In this document: positions 5,660 through 44,748 of the stretch, piece by piece
How positions within the stretch are numbered: the first letter of the stretch is position 1
Layout: every line of letters starts with the position of its first letter
Source of the DNA: Halobiforma lacisalsi AJ5
GTDB taxonomy: Archaea > Halobacteriota > Halobacteria > Halobacteriales > Natrialbaceae
Direction: 5' to 3'
Length of the DNA: 64,000 bases
Assembly (NCBI RefSeq): GCF_000226975.2
Contig: NZ_CP019285.1
Location: forward strand, 806,001 to 870,000
The notes under the pieces: generated by a model
What the model was told of the DNA's origin: nothing
Database searches by the model: none
Seen by the model: only the letters and a program-made list of their open reading frames with translations
Position numbers and translations under genes: made by a program

Positions 5660-5735
5660 GGTACTGAATCAGTTCCGGCGTAACCGCGACCAGGGCGAGG
5701 GTTGCGCCGGTACATCGGGACAGCGATCCGTACCC
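5660..5735 (+). repeat. Dispersed hairpin repeat, copy A
   Basis: Imperfect copy of a roughly 70-bp element found five times in this window. Layout: a lead-in ending CAGTTCC, a hairpin, then a conserved tail GGTACATCGGGACAGC...CCGTAC. Left arm 5675-5687, right arm about 5698-5710; one arm change keeps a G-U pair. It lies about 40 nt downstream of the methyltransferase stop codon. The rest of the 300-bp gap holds an AT-rich stretch (5807-5870) that could carry the protease promoter, and the palindrome listed next. Confidence 0.75.
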
Positions 5736-5926: not shown

Positions 5927-8900
5927 ATGAGCGACACACCACGGTTACAATCGAAATCGACTATATCACGTAGCATAGCGGTCGTATTCGCGCTCCTGAT
6001 GGTGACATCGGCACCCGCGATGGCGTTTGCGGGAGCCTCCGGGGGAACCCAGACGGAAGCCGCGATCAACGACGAACGGACGAACGTCTCGCCGGCGGTA
6101 GACGAGACGGTGCTGGACCGGGACGAACCGTTCGAGATGGTTCTCCGATTCGAATCCGCGGACGTCTCCGACTCGATGACGGAGGCCGAAGCGGTTAGCG
6201 CGTTGCAGGCCCACGCCGAGCGGACCCAGTCGGACGCGCTCTCCTGGATCGAACGCACCGACGGGGTCGAGTACCGGAACGACTTCTGGCTCGCGAACGC
6301 GGTCCTCGTCGAGGTCGAACCGTCGACGGTCGGCCCGAAGCGAATCGCCGAAGCGACCGGTGCGGAGAGCGTCCACGCTAATTTCGAGGTCAGCACGCTC
6401 GATGGCGAGAACGCGTCCGAAAGCGACGCGGAGGCCGACGATACGGCCGACAGGGACGCCGAGGCGGACACGGCCGGATCGATCAACGCCGCCGAAAACG
6501 TCACCTACGGCCTCGAGATGATCAACGCGCCCGACGTCTGGGAGGAATACGACACCAAGGGCGAGGGTGCAGGCGTCGCCGTCCTCGACACGGGGCTCGA
6601 CGCCGACCACCCCGACCACGAGATCGCACCGGAGAACTGGCAGCAGTTCGACGGCTCGGGGGAGCCGATCGAGACCGAGCCGAACGACGGCAACGGCCAC
6701 GGAACCCACGTGAGCGGAACCGTCGTCGGCCCCGAGGACCCGGCGGGTGACGTCCCCGCGTACGGCGTCGCCCCGGAGGCGGAGCTCTACCACGGGAAAG
6801 TCCTCGAGGACGACGGCAGCGGGACGTTCGCACAGATCGTCGCGGGCATGGAGTGGGCCGTCGACGACACCGACGCCGACGTCGTGACGATGAGTCTCGG
6901 CGTCGACGGCTACGAGAGCGAAATGGTCGAACCCTCCGAGAACGCACGCGATGCCGGCGTCGTACTCGTCGCCTCGGCCGGAAACTCCGGACAGGGCGTA
7001 AGCGGCGCGCCCGGGAACGTGTACCCGAACTTCGCGAGCGGCGCGGTCGACGAGAACGGCGAAGTCGCTGGCTTCTCGAGCGGCGAACTGATCGAAACCG
7101 ACGGGGCGTATCCGGACGCGCCCGAGTACTGGCCCGACGAGTACGTCGTGCCGAACGCGGCCGCGCCGGGCGTCGATGTCTTGAGTTCGGTCCCCGGCGG
7201 CGGGTACGACGGGACCTTCTCGGGAACGTCGATGTCCGCCCCGCACAAGGCAGGTACGTTCGCGCTGCTGGTGTCGGCCTCCGACGGCGAGGCCGACCGG
7301 GAACTGCTGTACGAGGCAGTCGAGACCACCGCCTGGCAGCCCGACGGCGTCGAGGAGGAGCCAAACACCGAGTACGGACACGGTATCATCGACGCCGCGG
7401 CCGCGGCCGACCTGGTCGCGCTCGATAGCGGCGTCGAGGGGACCGTCACCGACGCCGACGGGACCCCCATCGGGGGAGCCGTCGTCGAACTCGACGATAG
7501 AAGCACCGAAACGGACGAAAGCGGCGCGTACAGCCACGTCGCTGCGCCAGGAGAGTACACGGTGACCGCGGACGCGTTCGGCTACGAGAGCGTGAGCGCG
7601 GACGTGACCGTCGAGGAGAACGAAACGACCGAACAGGACTTCGAGTTAGGCGACGCGCTCGACGTCGAACTGGCGAGCGGCCAGCCCGACGGCGTCGAGG
7701 GCGGTCAGACCATCGAAGCGACCGTCACCGCTGCGAACGCGGAGTCGATCACCGTCGACCTCGCGGGCGACTACGACGAGGCGGACGCGACCCTGTTCGT
7801 CGACGGCGAGGAAGCCACCTTCGGCGAGGAAGTCGACCTCGGCGGTCCCGTCTCGGGCGACCTGACCGTCGCCGTCGAGACGACCGAGGACACAGAAGGA
7901 GAGCTCTCGCTCGAGCACACGATCGCCGGTCTGAACGACGAGATTACGGTGACGACCGGCCCGACGACGGTGTTCGAGGACTTCGTCCCAGTCGCCGTCG
8001 TCGACGACGCCGGTGCACACGGCAGCGATGTCGCGGACGTGCTCGATGCGACGCTCTCGCCGATGTACAACCCCGAAGTGACCACGTCCGAGGAGGCCAT
8101 GGACGGATACGACGTCGTCGTCGTCCAGAACATCGACCCCGCCGCTGCGGAAGCGTTCGCCGAGGCGACCGGCGACCGCGACACCGGCGTCGTCTACCTC
8201 GACCAGTGGGGAGTAGACAGCAACGGCATCCCCGAACACTCCGAGGCGACCGGTGAACCGGACGCGACCTACCAGGACGATCTCGCCGCGCCGCCGATCG
8301 GCTACGAACTGACCGCGGATCACGAGATCTTCGAGGGCATCGGTGAAGCGGGTGAGACGGTCGAACTGCACGACGCCCTCTTCGGCGACCACACCTGGTT
8401 CGAAGGAACGGAGTACGACGTACTCGCCGAGACGACCACCGGCGACGGCGTGACGGCCGGCAGCGGCTTCGCCGTCGACGACCGGAGCGCGACGGTGTTC
8501 GCCTCGAGCCTCGGCTACACGACGTTCGTCGGCAGCGACGACTACACCGACGAGGCCGACGCGATCCTCGCGAACGCCGTCGAGTACGTCGTCCCGGAAC
8601 CCGCACCGAACTTCCAACTCGAGGTGCTCGGGACGAACGAGCCGATCATCGAGGGCGAGAACCTGACCGTCGACGTCGCCGTCGAGAACGACGGCGTCGA
8701 GCCCGGAACACAGACCGTCACGCTCGGGAACTTCGACGGCGACGTCGTCGACGACGCGACGGTCGACCTGGAGGACGGCGAGTCGACCGTCGTCTCGCTG
8801 ACCTGGGAGACCGACGAGACCGACGTCGGTACCGGAAACGTGACCGTCGCGAGCGAGGACGACGCGATCGACTACGAACTGACGGTCCACGAGGAGCCAG

Positions 8901-9493
8901 ACGGGCTGCTCACCTTCGGCGACGGCGACCACGTCGGGACCGTCGAAGGGACGGTCGACGTCGAGATCGCCACGACGGCCGACGCCGTCGCCGGCTACGA
9001 AACCCAGGTCCGCTTCGACCCGGACGTGCTGCAAGTCGAGCGCGTCGAGGGCGGCGACCTGGGCGAGCCGATGACGGGAATCGACAACGAAAACGGGACG
9101 CTCTCGCTCGCACAGGCGCAGGGCCAGGACGCCAACGCGTCCACGCTCGCCGTCGTCGAATTCGCGATCGTCGACGACGCGCCCGAGGGCGGCACCGAAC
9201 TGGTGTTCGACGAGGAGAACACCTACCTCAACGCCGAGGACGGCGACCTCGATATCCTGCCGGTCGACGGCACCGTCGAGACCGCCTGGCTCGGTGACGT
9301 CAACGCCGATGGCGAACTCAACACCTACGACGCGACGCTCACCCAGCAGTTCATCGCCGGCGAAGAGCCGACCGACACGTTCCACGCGGAACTCGCGGAC
9401 ATGAACGGGAACGGACAGGTCGACGCCGGCGACGTCACGATGATGCTCGAAGAGATCGTCGCCAGCCACGGCGCTGACGCGCTCGAGGCCTGA
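5927..9493 (+). CDS. Secreted subtilisin-like protease with cohesin-like and dockerin domains
   Basis: 1188-aa exported serine protease (S8 family). It has a Sec-type signal peptide (about 15-36, ending AMAFA) and a propeptide with an inhibitor-like region (about 55-160). The catalytic residues are visible: D221 in VLDTGLD, H258 in GNGHGTHVSG, oxyanion N353 in ASAGNSG, and S435 in SGTSMSAPH. After the catalytic domain come a carboxypeptidase-regulatory-like beta domain (about 503-575), further beta-rich regions, a CARDB-like domain (about 895-990), a cohesin-like domain (about 992-1118) and a C-terminal dockerin (about 1123-1180) with two calcium-loop repeats, GDVNADGELN and DMNGNGQVDAGD. The next gene encodes an anchored cohesin-like protein, a plausible docking partner. 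Confidence 0.9.
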   Translation: MSDTPRLQSKSTISRSIAVVFALLMVTSAPAMAFAGASGGTQTEAAINDERTNVSPAVDETVLDRDEPFEMVLRFESADVSDSMTEAEAVSALQAHAERTQSDALSWIERTDGVEYRNDFWLANAVLVEVEPSTVGPKRIAEATGAESVHANFEVSTLDGENASESDAEADDTADRDAEADTAGSINAAENVTYGLEMINAPDVWEEYDTKGEGAGVAVLDTGLDADHPDHEIAPENWQQFDGSGEPIETEPNDGNGHGTHVSGTVVGPEDPAGDVPAYGVAPEAELYHGKVLEDDGSGTFAQIVAGMEWAVDDTDADVVTMSLGVDGYESEMVEPSENARDAGVVLVASAGNSGQGVSGAPGNVYPNFASGAVDENGEVAGFSSGELIETDGAYPDAPEYWPDEYVVPNAAAPGVDVLSSVPGGGYDGTFSGTSMSAPHKAGTFALLVSASDGEADRELLYEAVETTAWQPDGVEEEPNTEYGHGIIDAAAAADLVALDSGVEGTVTDADGTPIGGAVVELDDRSTETDESGAYSHVAAPGEYTVTADAFGYESVSADVTVEENETTEQDFELGDALDVELASGQPDGVEGGQTIEATVTAANAESITVDLAGDYDEADATLFVDGEEATFGEEVDLGGPVSGDLTVAVETTEDTEGELSLEHTIAGLNDEITVTTGPTTVFEDFVPVAVVDDAGAHGSDVADVLDATLSPMYNPEVTTSEEAMDGYDVVVVQNIDPAAAEAFAEATGDRDTGVVYLDQWGVDSNGIPEHSEATGEPDATYQDDLAAPPIGYELTADHEIFEGIGEAGETVELHDALFGDHTWFEGTEYDVLAETTTGDGVTAGSGFAVDDRSATVFASSLGYTTFVGSDDYTDEADAILANAVEYVVPEPAPNFQLEVLGTNEPIIEGENLTVDVAVENDGVEPGTQTVTLGNFDGDVVDDATVDLEDGESTVVSLTWETDETDVGTGNVTVASEDDAIDYELTVHEEPDGLLTFGDGDHVGTVEGTVDVEIATTADAVAGYETQVRFDPDVLQVERVEGGDLGEPMTGIDNENGTLSLAQAQGQDANASTLAVVEFAIVDDAPEGGTELVFDEENTYLNAEDGDLDILPVDGTVETAWLGDVNADGELNTYDATLTQQFIAGEEPTDTFHAELADMNGNGQVDAGDVTMMLEEIVASHGADALEA

Positions 9494-9639
9494 CGAACCG
9501 AGACACGATAGCGGAGTCGGCAGCGAATCGAAATCGCCCCGCGGCGATTTCTTCGTCCTCGAGTCGATGGCGACGATGACGGGACGGTGATACGAGCGTC
9601 CCTGCACGCGACGAAGACGATATTTCGAACGTTACGACA

Positions 9640-10611
9640 ATGAGAGAGACACAGAGACAGAATCCGAATCGATTTGGAACCCGGACTCGATCGCTCGTCC
9701 TCGCCCTCGTCGTCCTCCTCGCGGTGGCGACGGCTGCCGCGGGCGCACAGGCGGCAGTCGCGTCCACAACGGCGACCGGCGACGGAACGATCTCGCTCGA
9801 GACGGTGACGGAGGGCGACGGGACACTCACCGTCGCGATCACCTCCGAGGAGGCGGACGTCGCCGGCTTCGAGGCGAACGTGACCTACCCGGCGGACGAC
9901 GCCACGGTGGAAGACGTCGAGTTCGGCGACCTGGACGGGATGAACAACGAGAATACCGATCCGGAGAGCGGTTACGTGGCGGTCACGGAGTCGACCGTCG
10001 GCGAGAACAGCGTCGACGAACCGACGCTTGCGACCGTCACCTTCGCGACCGACGGCAGCGCGGACGACCTCGATGTCGACCTCGTCGAGGCGGACTCGTC
10101 GGTGACGGACGGTGATGGACAGCCGATCACCGGCGGTGACGCGGGCGACGGGAACGACGGGAACGACGGGAACGACGGAAGTGACGGCGGTTCGTCACCG
10201 GGCAGTGGCGATAGCGGTGACAACGGCGACGGAGGGGGTACCGGAACCGACGGGGACGACGATAGCGACGAAAAGAGCACCGACGGAACGGAAAGCACCG
10301 GCGGGAGCGACGACCCGGACGACGGAGAAAGCAACGACGGATCGGAGACGACCGACGACGGGTCCGACGGTGATGAAGATGAATCGGCCTCGAGCGACGA
10401 CTCGGCCAGTGACGACTCCACCAGCGACGACGAAGAGGACGAACGAGAGACCGACGATGCTGATGATGACGGTGACGGTGACCGTGACAGCACTGGGGAC
10501 GAAGCCAGTGACAGCGACGACATCCCCGGATTCACACCCGTTGGAACGGTCGTCGCAGTACTGATCGGCCTGCTCGGTATCGGTCTGTCGACCCGACGTC
10601 GATCCGACTGA
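9640..10611 (+). CDS. Cohesin-domain surface protein with PGF-CTERM anchor
   Basis: 323-aa exported protein. It has a signal peptide (about 18-40, TAAAGAQA), one cohesin-like beta domain (about 48-165) with features also seen in the cohesin region of the preceding protease (VAGFEANVTYP, ATVTFATDG), then a 120-residue linker almost entirely Gly, Asp, Ser, Glu and Thr (about 166-290). It ends in DIPGFTPVGTVVAV, one membrane helix and RRRSD. This tail is a PGF-CTERM signal, recognised in haloarchaea by archaeosortase A, which fixes the protein to a membrane lipid. It starts 146 bp after the dockerin protease in the same direction. Its likely role is a small surface scaffold; that is inference from domain pairing. 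Confidence 0.8.
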   Translation: MRETQRQNPNRFGTRTRSLVLALVVLLAVATAAAGAQAAVASTTATGDGTISLETVTEGDGTLTVAITSEEADVAGFEANVTYPADDATVEDVEFGDLDGMNNENTDPESGYVAVTESTVGENSVDEPTLATVTFATDGSADDLDVDLVEADSSVTDGDGQPITGGDAGDGNDGNDGNDGSDGGSSPGSGDSGDNGDGGGTGTDGDDDSDEKSTDGTESTGGSDDPDDGESNDGSETTDDGSDGDEDESASSDDSASDDSTSDDEEDERETDDADDDGDGDRDSTGDEASDSDDIPGFTPVGTVVAVLIGLLGIGLSTRRRSD

Positions 10612-10618
10612 GACGGTT

Positions 10619-10700
10619 TACTGTAAGTCAGTTCCGGCGCAACCGCGACCCGGCGGCGGTTGCGCCGGTAGATCGGTACAGCAAGCCGTATGAGACGGAC
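10619..10700 (+). repeat. Dispersed hairpin repeat, copy B1
   Basis: Best-preserved copy. It has the lead-in ACTGTAAGTCAGTTCC, a perfect 13-bp stem (left arm 10634-10646, right arm 10656-10668) with a 9-nt loop, then the tail GTAGATCGGTACAGC...CCGTATGAG. It begins 8 nt after the stop codon of the cohesin protein gene. Confidence 0.85.
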
Positions 10701-10861: not shown

Positions 10862-10948
10862 ATGGACAGGAGTCAACTCTTCGCGGTGCTGTTTGCGGTT
10901 CTCATGGTGACCTCGATGATCGCGTGGGGAGCACTCGCAGCACTGTAG
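10862..10948 (+). CDS. 28-aa single-helix membrane peptide
   Basis: Short open frame MDRSQLFAVLFAVLMVTSMI... ending WGALAAL, with ATG at 10862-10864. It is almost all one hydrophobic helix preceded by MDRSQ. Its core, FAVLMVTS, resembles FALLMVTS in the signal peptide of the protease at 5927. It could be a membrane micropeptide or a remnant of a signal peptide. It sits between hairpin repeat B2 and the convergent helicase gene. Codon use looks haloarchaeal, but so short a frame needs conservation or proteomic support. Confidence 0.45.
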   Translation: MDRSQLFAVLFAVLMVTSMIAWGALAAL

Positions 10949-10990
10949 TCGAGGACGCTCGCCGATCGAACCGGGCCGAACGAGGCTTTT

Positions 10991-44013: not shown

Positions 44014-44748
44014 AGCGGGGTTGATTACCGCTAATAGCCCGTTGCCCTGCATAAACACTCTGCTGCCGGTCGGGTCGCAGGCAGATTCTATATAGCGATA
44101 TGAAATTTAACGCAGGTTGGCTACCGGACTGGACCCGTCGTATCGAACAACCGGGTTTGGCAAACGAGACGCACCTCCGAGGAGTGGGTAGAACGGCACT
44201 GGGAACGCCGATGGCCGCTCGAGGGCCGGTACCCCAGTTCAAACCGCAGAGATCGTTCCCCGTGCGAGACACGAGCTCCGATCGGGACTGATCGTCGATA
44301 GCCCATCACTTCGACAGCAACGTTCCCACCGACGCTCGTGGAGTCACTCGACATAGGGCCAGCCGAGGTCGTCGATCCGTCGCCGTCTCGAATCCCCGGT
44401 CGTCACATTGCGGACAGGCACAGGACGCTCGAGACGCTCCCTGACTGATCCGGTCTACAGTCCGTCAGTTCCGGCGCAACCGCGACCGGGCGGCGGTTGC
44501 GCCGGGAAATTTGGACAGCAACCCAAACCCCTGGTTCGTGCGACACATTCGGGAAGCCAAACACGGTGCATGGGACCGCGTTTCGACGGCGCCCTCGAGA
44601 TGCGCCCGACGAAAGCCGAGGCCGTGCGGTCGACCCCGGCCCGGAGACCATCGATCGCTGGCCAGCGAACCGAACGAGCCGATTTTCGGGCGCTGCGCAC
44701 AGCTCTCCGAACCGGGCCGAAACGCATCATAAACCGTATAGAATGATA
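44014..44748. other. 735-bp non-coding region
   Basis: There is no convincing gene in either strand. Frames present are basic and Arg/Pro-rich, unlike the acidic proteome. It has an AT-rich, promoter-like patch (TCTATATAGCGATATG near 44088-44103), the hairpin repeat copy C at 44458-44530, and another AT-rich spot at 44727-44755 next to the 3' end of the following gene. Confidence 0.6.
44458..44530 (+). repeat. Dispersed hairpin repeat, copy C
   Basis: Near-identical to copy B1: lead-in ending GTCAGTTCC, perfect 13-bp stem (44471-44483 with 44493-44505) and 9-nt loop. The tail is diverged (GAAATTTGGACAGC...) but keeps the GGACAGCA core. This copy lies inside a large gap, not directly behind a gene. 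Confidence 0.82.

Follow-up and report, generated by a model that had tools for sequence, protein, structure and literature searches.

The window analysed here is a 64,000-nucleotide stretch (positions 806001-870000 of contig 1 in a 4.38-Mb haloarchaeal genome, G000) in which a gene encoding a secreted subtilase with a cohesin and a dockerin at its C-terminus is followed, on the same strand, by a gene encoding a single-cohesin protein that ends in a putative membrane anchor. The features of the two genes, in window coordinates, are as follows.

5927..9493, + strand: secreted S8 subtilase of 1188 aa, with a cohesin and a dockerin at the C-terminal end (open reading frame and domain search)
5927..6034, + strand: Sec-type signal peptide of the protease, MSDTPRLQSKSTISRSIAVVFALLMVTSAPAMA (approximate, by eye)
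6560..7384, + strand: Peptidase_S8 catalytic domain (aa 212-486; PF00082, 130 bits)
7433..7648, + strand: carboxypeptidase-regulatory-like domain, CarboxypepD_reg (aa 503-574; PF13620, 60 bits)
8633..8848, + strand: CARDB domain (aa 903-974; PF07705, 25.8 bits, cut-off 22.7)
8897..9280, + strand: enzyme-borne cohesin (Pfam Cohesin, aa 1003-1118; PF00963, 34.2 bits, cut-off 24.1)
9290..9445, + strand: dockerin type I domain (Dockerin_1, aa 1122-1173; PF00404, 35.2 bits, cut-off 22.9)
9296-9331, + strand: dockerin calcium loop 1, DVNADGELNTYD, complete
9398-9433, + strand: dockerin calcium loop 2, DMNGNGQVDAGD, complete
9640..10611, + strand: membrane-anchored single-cohesin protein (323 aa; open reading frame, family profile and AlphaFold fold match)
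9640..9753, + strand: signal peptide of the anchored protein, MRETQRQNPNRFGTRTRSLVLALVVLLAVATAAAGAQA (approximate, by eye)
9787..10134, + strand: cohesin domain of the anchor, proposed dockerin receptor (AlphaFold pLDDT 89.4 and PDB fold matches)
10144..10512, + strand: acidic Asp/Gly/Ser linker (about 122 aa, 93% D/E/G/S/T/N)
10522..10608, + strand: PGF-CTERM-like tail, PGFTPVGTVVAVLIGLLGIGLSTRRRSD (PGF motif, hydrophobic helix, basic end)

The pair lies between an nmd3-TRM5/TYW2 segment and the gene for an XPD-like helicase, and the same flanking genes surround it in nine other genomes. In related genomes without the pair the gap between the methyltransferase and the helicase is mostly in the range of 190-600 bp, versus 5.4 kb here (values taken from match borders and thus approximate), and the pair resembles a cassette with a constant chromosomal position. 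A perfect 13-bp palindrome (CCGGCGCAACCGC/GCGGTTGCGCCGG) is found just after the pair, at 10634-10668, and again at 44471-44505, while an imperfect copy of this palindrome repeat (39 nt, 85%) is present at approximately 5673-5732, just before the protease gene, so that a repeat element flanks the pair. A tiny open reading frame (10863-10949, + strand, MDRSQLFAVLFAVLMVTSMIAWGALAAL), probably encoding a small membrane protein, is located just downstream. The scan for promoters and terminators, which covers bacterial promoter types only, returned nothing notable.

Domains and folds of the two proteins

The best relatives of the protease in the PDB are subtilisins, and the motifs of the catalytic triad are intact (D221, HGTH258, GTS435); no membrane anchor was seen at its C-terminus. 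The protein is 97% identical to that of Halobiforma haloterrestris, and a scan for related loci with the protease sequence named only Halobiforma and Natrialba relatives. Both calcium loops of the dockerin fit the duplicated F-hand pattern (D1, N/D3, D/N5, G6, D12), most of these key positions being invariant or nearly so among 33 relatives, and the dockerin profile matches solved dockerins by sequence with a best E value of 2e-14. In the AlphaFold model of the cohesin-dockerin region (pLDDT 90.6, with values mostly above 90 in the cohesin), the top 33 PDB fold matches are all cohesin entries, including 2xdh.

The cohesin of the neighbouring protein is not matched directly by Pfam. Evidence for its identity comes from its aligned family, 25 of the 33 members of which match PF00963 (best E value, 4e-12), and from the comparison of the family profile with that of the protease cohesins, which gave a 99.9% probability; the best PDB matches of the anchor-family profile are cellulosomal cohesins. 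The AlphaFold model of the anchor domain has a pLDDT of 89.4 and a pTM of 0.83, and all of its 37 PDB matches with E<=0.001 are cohesins, Archaeoglobus 2xdh being among them. The cohesin beta-sandwich is thus shown, as a fold predicted by models, for both the protease and the anchor domain. The C-terminal tail has the layout expected of a PGF-CTERM signal and scores 14.2 bits against model TIGR04126, below the cut-off of 24.5 bits; archaeosortase A is encoded in the same genome (TIGR04125, 322 bits, E=5e-96).

The original prediction, made without database searches, had assigned two dockerin-type calcium loops to the end of the protease and a single cohesin-like domain, a long linker and a PGF-CTERM anchor to its neighbour. 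All these assignments held, with the reservation on the score of the tail, and the further domain of the protease described as 'cohesin-like' is to be amended to a bona fide cohesin by Pfam. The prediction would have fallen with a neighbour lacking the cohesin fold or with defective calcium loops. Neither was the case: the AlphaFold model of the neighbour matches cohesins, and the loops are complete and conserved in relatives.

Recurrence of the arrangement

When the whole genome was searched with the anchor-cohesin profile, exactly two domains were found, one in each gene of the pair. Two proteins exceed the Dockerin_1 cut-off, namely the subtilase and a protein at C1:404384 that is of the PhoX type (74.5 bits) and whose C-terminus carries a cohesin-like domain and a dockerin. 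The latter belongs to a second pair:

ORFs 7370-10033 and 6612-7373 of locus L075 (G000:C1:397000-411500), - strand: second dockerin pair

The PhoX-type gene has a 4-nt overlap with the beginning of the gene for a 253-aa secreted protein with a PGF-CTERM tail, and the related domains of the two proteins share 32% identity (E=4e-15 in a two-sequence comparison). Since Pfam recognises neither of these domains as a cohesin, the PhoX-type pair is regarded as a parallel by layout. There is no multi-cohesin scaffoldin in this genome, as judged from cohesins of the anchor-profile type, which are only single. Membership of the window pair in a cellulosome was considered and ruled out, as the dockerin set of the genome includes no scaffoldin or glycoside hydrolase. 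Elsewhere in the genome (G000:C1:3137726-3138415; loci L004 and L164), an orphan 229-aa PGF-CTERM protein with a weak cohesin match adjoins a Tat-type lipoprotein (MRDRTTFDRIDRRTFVTGV...), an arrangement similar to that of locus L187.

The original prediction had called for a genome search for further dockerin proteins, and its extension to other genomes demonstrated that the pairing recurs far beyond the window locus. In a forward survey, 392 Halobacteriales genomes were searched with PF00404; 179 matched, 120 loci were fetched, and cohesins were scored with an iterated cohesin profile. Among the 32 subtilases with both cohesin and dockerin, 29 are followed by a cohesin gene on the same strand; by excluding two loci (L073 and L081), in which the neighbour itself bears a dockerin, an anchored-cohesin gene is immediately downstream in 27, from 11 genera and five families. 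Of the five left over, four (L055, L073, L077 and L081) are part of clusters with anchored cohesins, L051 being the sole one of the 32 with no anchored cohesin nearby. The corresponding figure for dockerin subtilases without a cohesin is 0 of 27 (Fisher p=8e-12, a value that is descriptive only, being uncorrected for relatedness among genomes that are not independent). Dockerin loci without an adjacent cohesin gene comprise these 27 subtilases and 49 other proteins. Because so many haloarchaeal dockerin proteins have no such neighbour, dockerin loops can evidently do other things than dock. Six dockerin subtilases of approx. 570-600 aa (L036, L053, L054, L059, L070 and L071), with no cohesin, are preceded by a PGF-CTERM protein (PPHRFFGTVED...) with what looks by eye like a carboxypeptidase-regulatory-type domain, which might possibly be a different dockerin partner.

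The reverse survey started from the anchor profile, which matched 67 of the 392 genomes; 20 cohesin genes, 16 of them strong matches, were fetched without regard to dockerins. A dockerin gene is immediately upstream of 12 of the 16 strong anchored-cohesin genes, mostly with a 4-nt start/stop overlap, and the other four group as a single clade in the tree. The upstream dockerin proteins are mostly metallophosphoesterases. The four of these 12 that were scanned were all PF00149-like, with scores of 19-40 bits, of which the lowest is marginally below the cut-off, and three loci of the forward set (L074, L101 and L153) match the same metallophosphoesterase family. Some anchored cohesins are orphans (L181-L184); three of them (L181-L183), each with one cohesin and a plain membrane helix, come from a single genus, in which the protease pair is likewise present. 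Overall, the enzymes found beside anchored cohesins are a subtilase, a metallophosphoesterase and a beta-helix protein, along with the PhoX-type protein by layout. Since the same layout is observed with the first three, the anchored cohesin follows the dockerin, whatever enzyme bears it. The C-terminus of the anchors is either PGF-CTERM or a plain hydrophobic helix with a basic tail, the cohesin being kept across the swap, although archaeosortase A is present in 17 of the 17 genomes tested.

Expanded clusters, with scaffoldins beside many dockerin proteases, occupy the slot homologous to that of the window pair in three relatives. In G261 (loci L156-L158, G261:C1:76516-112592), the homologous slot is a 36 kb cluster that contains the orthologous protease and the single-cohesin anchor belonging to it, a PGF-CTERM scaffoldin of 2087 aa with 14 cohesins (14 stretches by Pfam, E=1e-83), one PGF-CTERM protein with three cohesins and another with a single one. 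The dockerin genes in this slot are ten in all, eight of which encode S8 proteases. The slot of G087 (L159-L160) has an 8-cohesin scaffoldin, and that of G377 (L162-L163) one 4-cohesin and one 2-cohesin protein.

Proposed docking model and alternatives

The domains, the folds, the calcium loops, the gene order, the recurrence with different enzymes and the presence of the anchoring machinery are shown. The most probable explanation, in the absence of binding data, is that the two genes form a surface-display module, in which the dockerin clips an unanchored protease to an anchored cohesin. In this model, the protease would be exported without a membrane anchor of its own, and the dockerin at its C-terminus would fold around a pair of Ca2+ ions and plug into the cohesin of the neighbour. 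The latter would also be exported, and archaeosortase A would anchor it in the cell membrane by way of the PGF-CTERM tail, with the acidic linker carrying the cohesin outward. The protease would be held non-covalently at the surface and, therefore, its products would be generated next to the cell. Most likely, the cohesin of the enzyme supports the dockerin structurally, as the X module does in bacterial XDoc pairs, or occasionally receives another dockerin, and the window pair would be the smallest version of a module capable of expansion to multi-enzyme, multi-cohesin arrays. Binding, its calcium dependence, the surface location and any advantage are inferred, there being neither binding data nor a predicted complex. 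The many dockerin proteins that lack an adjacent cohesin gene, the orphan anchored cohesins and the sub-threshold score of the PGF-CTERM tail also weigh against the model. The earlier proposal that the pair holds the protease at the cell surface is thus supported, with binding remaining an inference.

An unlikely alternative is that the protease's own cohesin and dockerin bind one another, either intramolecularly or from copy to copy to form chains, so that the anchored cohesin would be a side receptor or the start of a chain. The adjacency of the two domains in one polypeptide speaks for it, as does their correlated divergence (partial r, 0.65). Dockerin and anchor cohesin likewise diverge together to an extent not accounted for by the catalytic domain (partial r of their distance matrices, 0.53). 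An equal value of 0.53 was obtained for the enzyme-borne cohesin, so that co-divergence does not discriminate the partner of the dockerin. Against self-pairing, in a tree in which cohesins were labelled as enzyme or anchor/scaffold type with the dockerin profile, the enzyme-borne domains are mostly separate from the others (5 label changes versus 39.5 after shuffling), and the scaffoldin cohesins of the expanded arrays group with the anchor type rather than the enzyme type. Furthermore, the metallophosphoesterase-dockerin proteins have no such cohesin by Pfam, yet the anchored partner is kept. Given that enzyme cohesins branch mostly apart, and that phosphoesterase pairs appear to lack one, the enzyme-borne cohesin is likely to support the dockerin structurally and not to serve as a further socket. 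Chaining of protease copies through this domain, as initially proposed, is less favoured on the same two grounds, but not excluded.

It may also be argued that the modules play a passive part, in that the loops of the dockerin and the sandwich of the cohesin serve only to stabilize the secreted proteins or to bind substrate, with adjacency being due to common descent. Recent haloarchaeal papers do read dockerins as substrate-binding (PMC10963439, PMC13260240), and many dockerin proteins have no cohesin neighbour. However, the same gene order turns up with different enzymes and was also recovered by the reverse search, it tracks the cohesin-plus-dockerin architecture (27/32 versus 0/27), and it is difficult to account for multi-cohesin scaffoldins next to dockerin genes if no pairing takes place, making this reading very improbable. 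That the anchored protein is a client of the protease (an inhibitor, a chaperone or a substrate), met during export, would fit an adjacent and probably co-expressed secreted pair, but the same type of anchor is found beside non-proteases, where inhibition or processing of a protease would be senseless, and this possibility is all but eliminated.

Starting from the docking module, a bolder reading is that haloarchaea possess an equivalent of the cellulosome built on proteases, of which the window pair would be the one-socket form. The G261 cluster, in which 14- and 3-cohesin scaffoldins and a pair of single-cohesin anchors are combined with ten dockerin genes (eight for proteases), would then encode an archaeosortase-anchored multi-protease array at the cell surface. 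The balance of the evidence tips slightly in favour of this reading.

Relation to known cohesin-dockerin systems

The pairing of cohesins and dockerins is textbook knowledge. Bacterial cellulosomes share both folds with the window pair, whose anchor resembles a single-cohesin anchoring scaffoldin, and loci related to it contain scaffoldins with 3-14 cohesins. In contrast with the cellulosome, the window has no cellulase, carbohydrate-binding scaffold or multi-cohesin protein, the enzyme is a protease, and the anchor is of the archaeosortase type rather than SLH. Among Archaea, Archaeoglobus fulgidus has a protein with cohesin and dockerin in one chain and a cohesin protein beside it (AF2375/AF2376), a non-cellulosomal case. 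The resemblance extends to structure, 2xdh being among the top fold matches of both window models, and archaeal versions of the two modules are stated to have been verified to bind (PMC9012536). The haloarchaeal module differs in that the dockerin is borne by a recognisable protease, the partner has a PGF-CTERM-like anchor, and the arrangement recurs with several enzymes across an order. A cohesin/dockerin repertoire is also reported for ANME archaea, where scaffoldin-like proteins carry as many as five cohesins each, earlier archaea being said to lack scaffoldins (PMC9012536). The dockerin proteins reported there are transporter-binding and S-layer proteins, with no enzyme-anchor operon in the passage bearing on it, whereas the haloarchaeal scaffoldins reach 14 cohesins. 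Finally, a Halobacterium subtilase with Dockerin_1 repeats (NP_280653.1), thus also a haloarchaeal S8 protease with dockerin repeats, was filed under cellulose degradation in 2008 (PMC2605481), in a paper in which the word cohesin is absent.

Cohesin-dockerin pairing and its occurrence in Archaea are therefore known, and the enzyme-plus-anchor module and the haloarchaeal scaffoldins appear to be new as far as the search went: no description of either was found in the open-access literature searched, most subscription papers being outside its scope. With the proviso that binding data are lacking, cellulosome-style docking of enzymes appears to be a standing, largely unreported surface system of Archaea. 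An enzyme/anchor gene pair that is repeated with different enzymes and with archaeosortase anchoring gives these modules a concrete job that can be tested in genetically tractable organisms. If confirmed, docking would be a third haloarchaeal route for placing enzymes at the surface, beside covalent lipid anchoring and free secretion, and would be a source of salt-stable docking parts.
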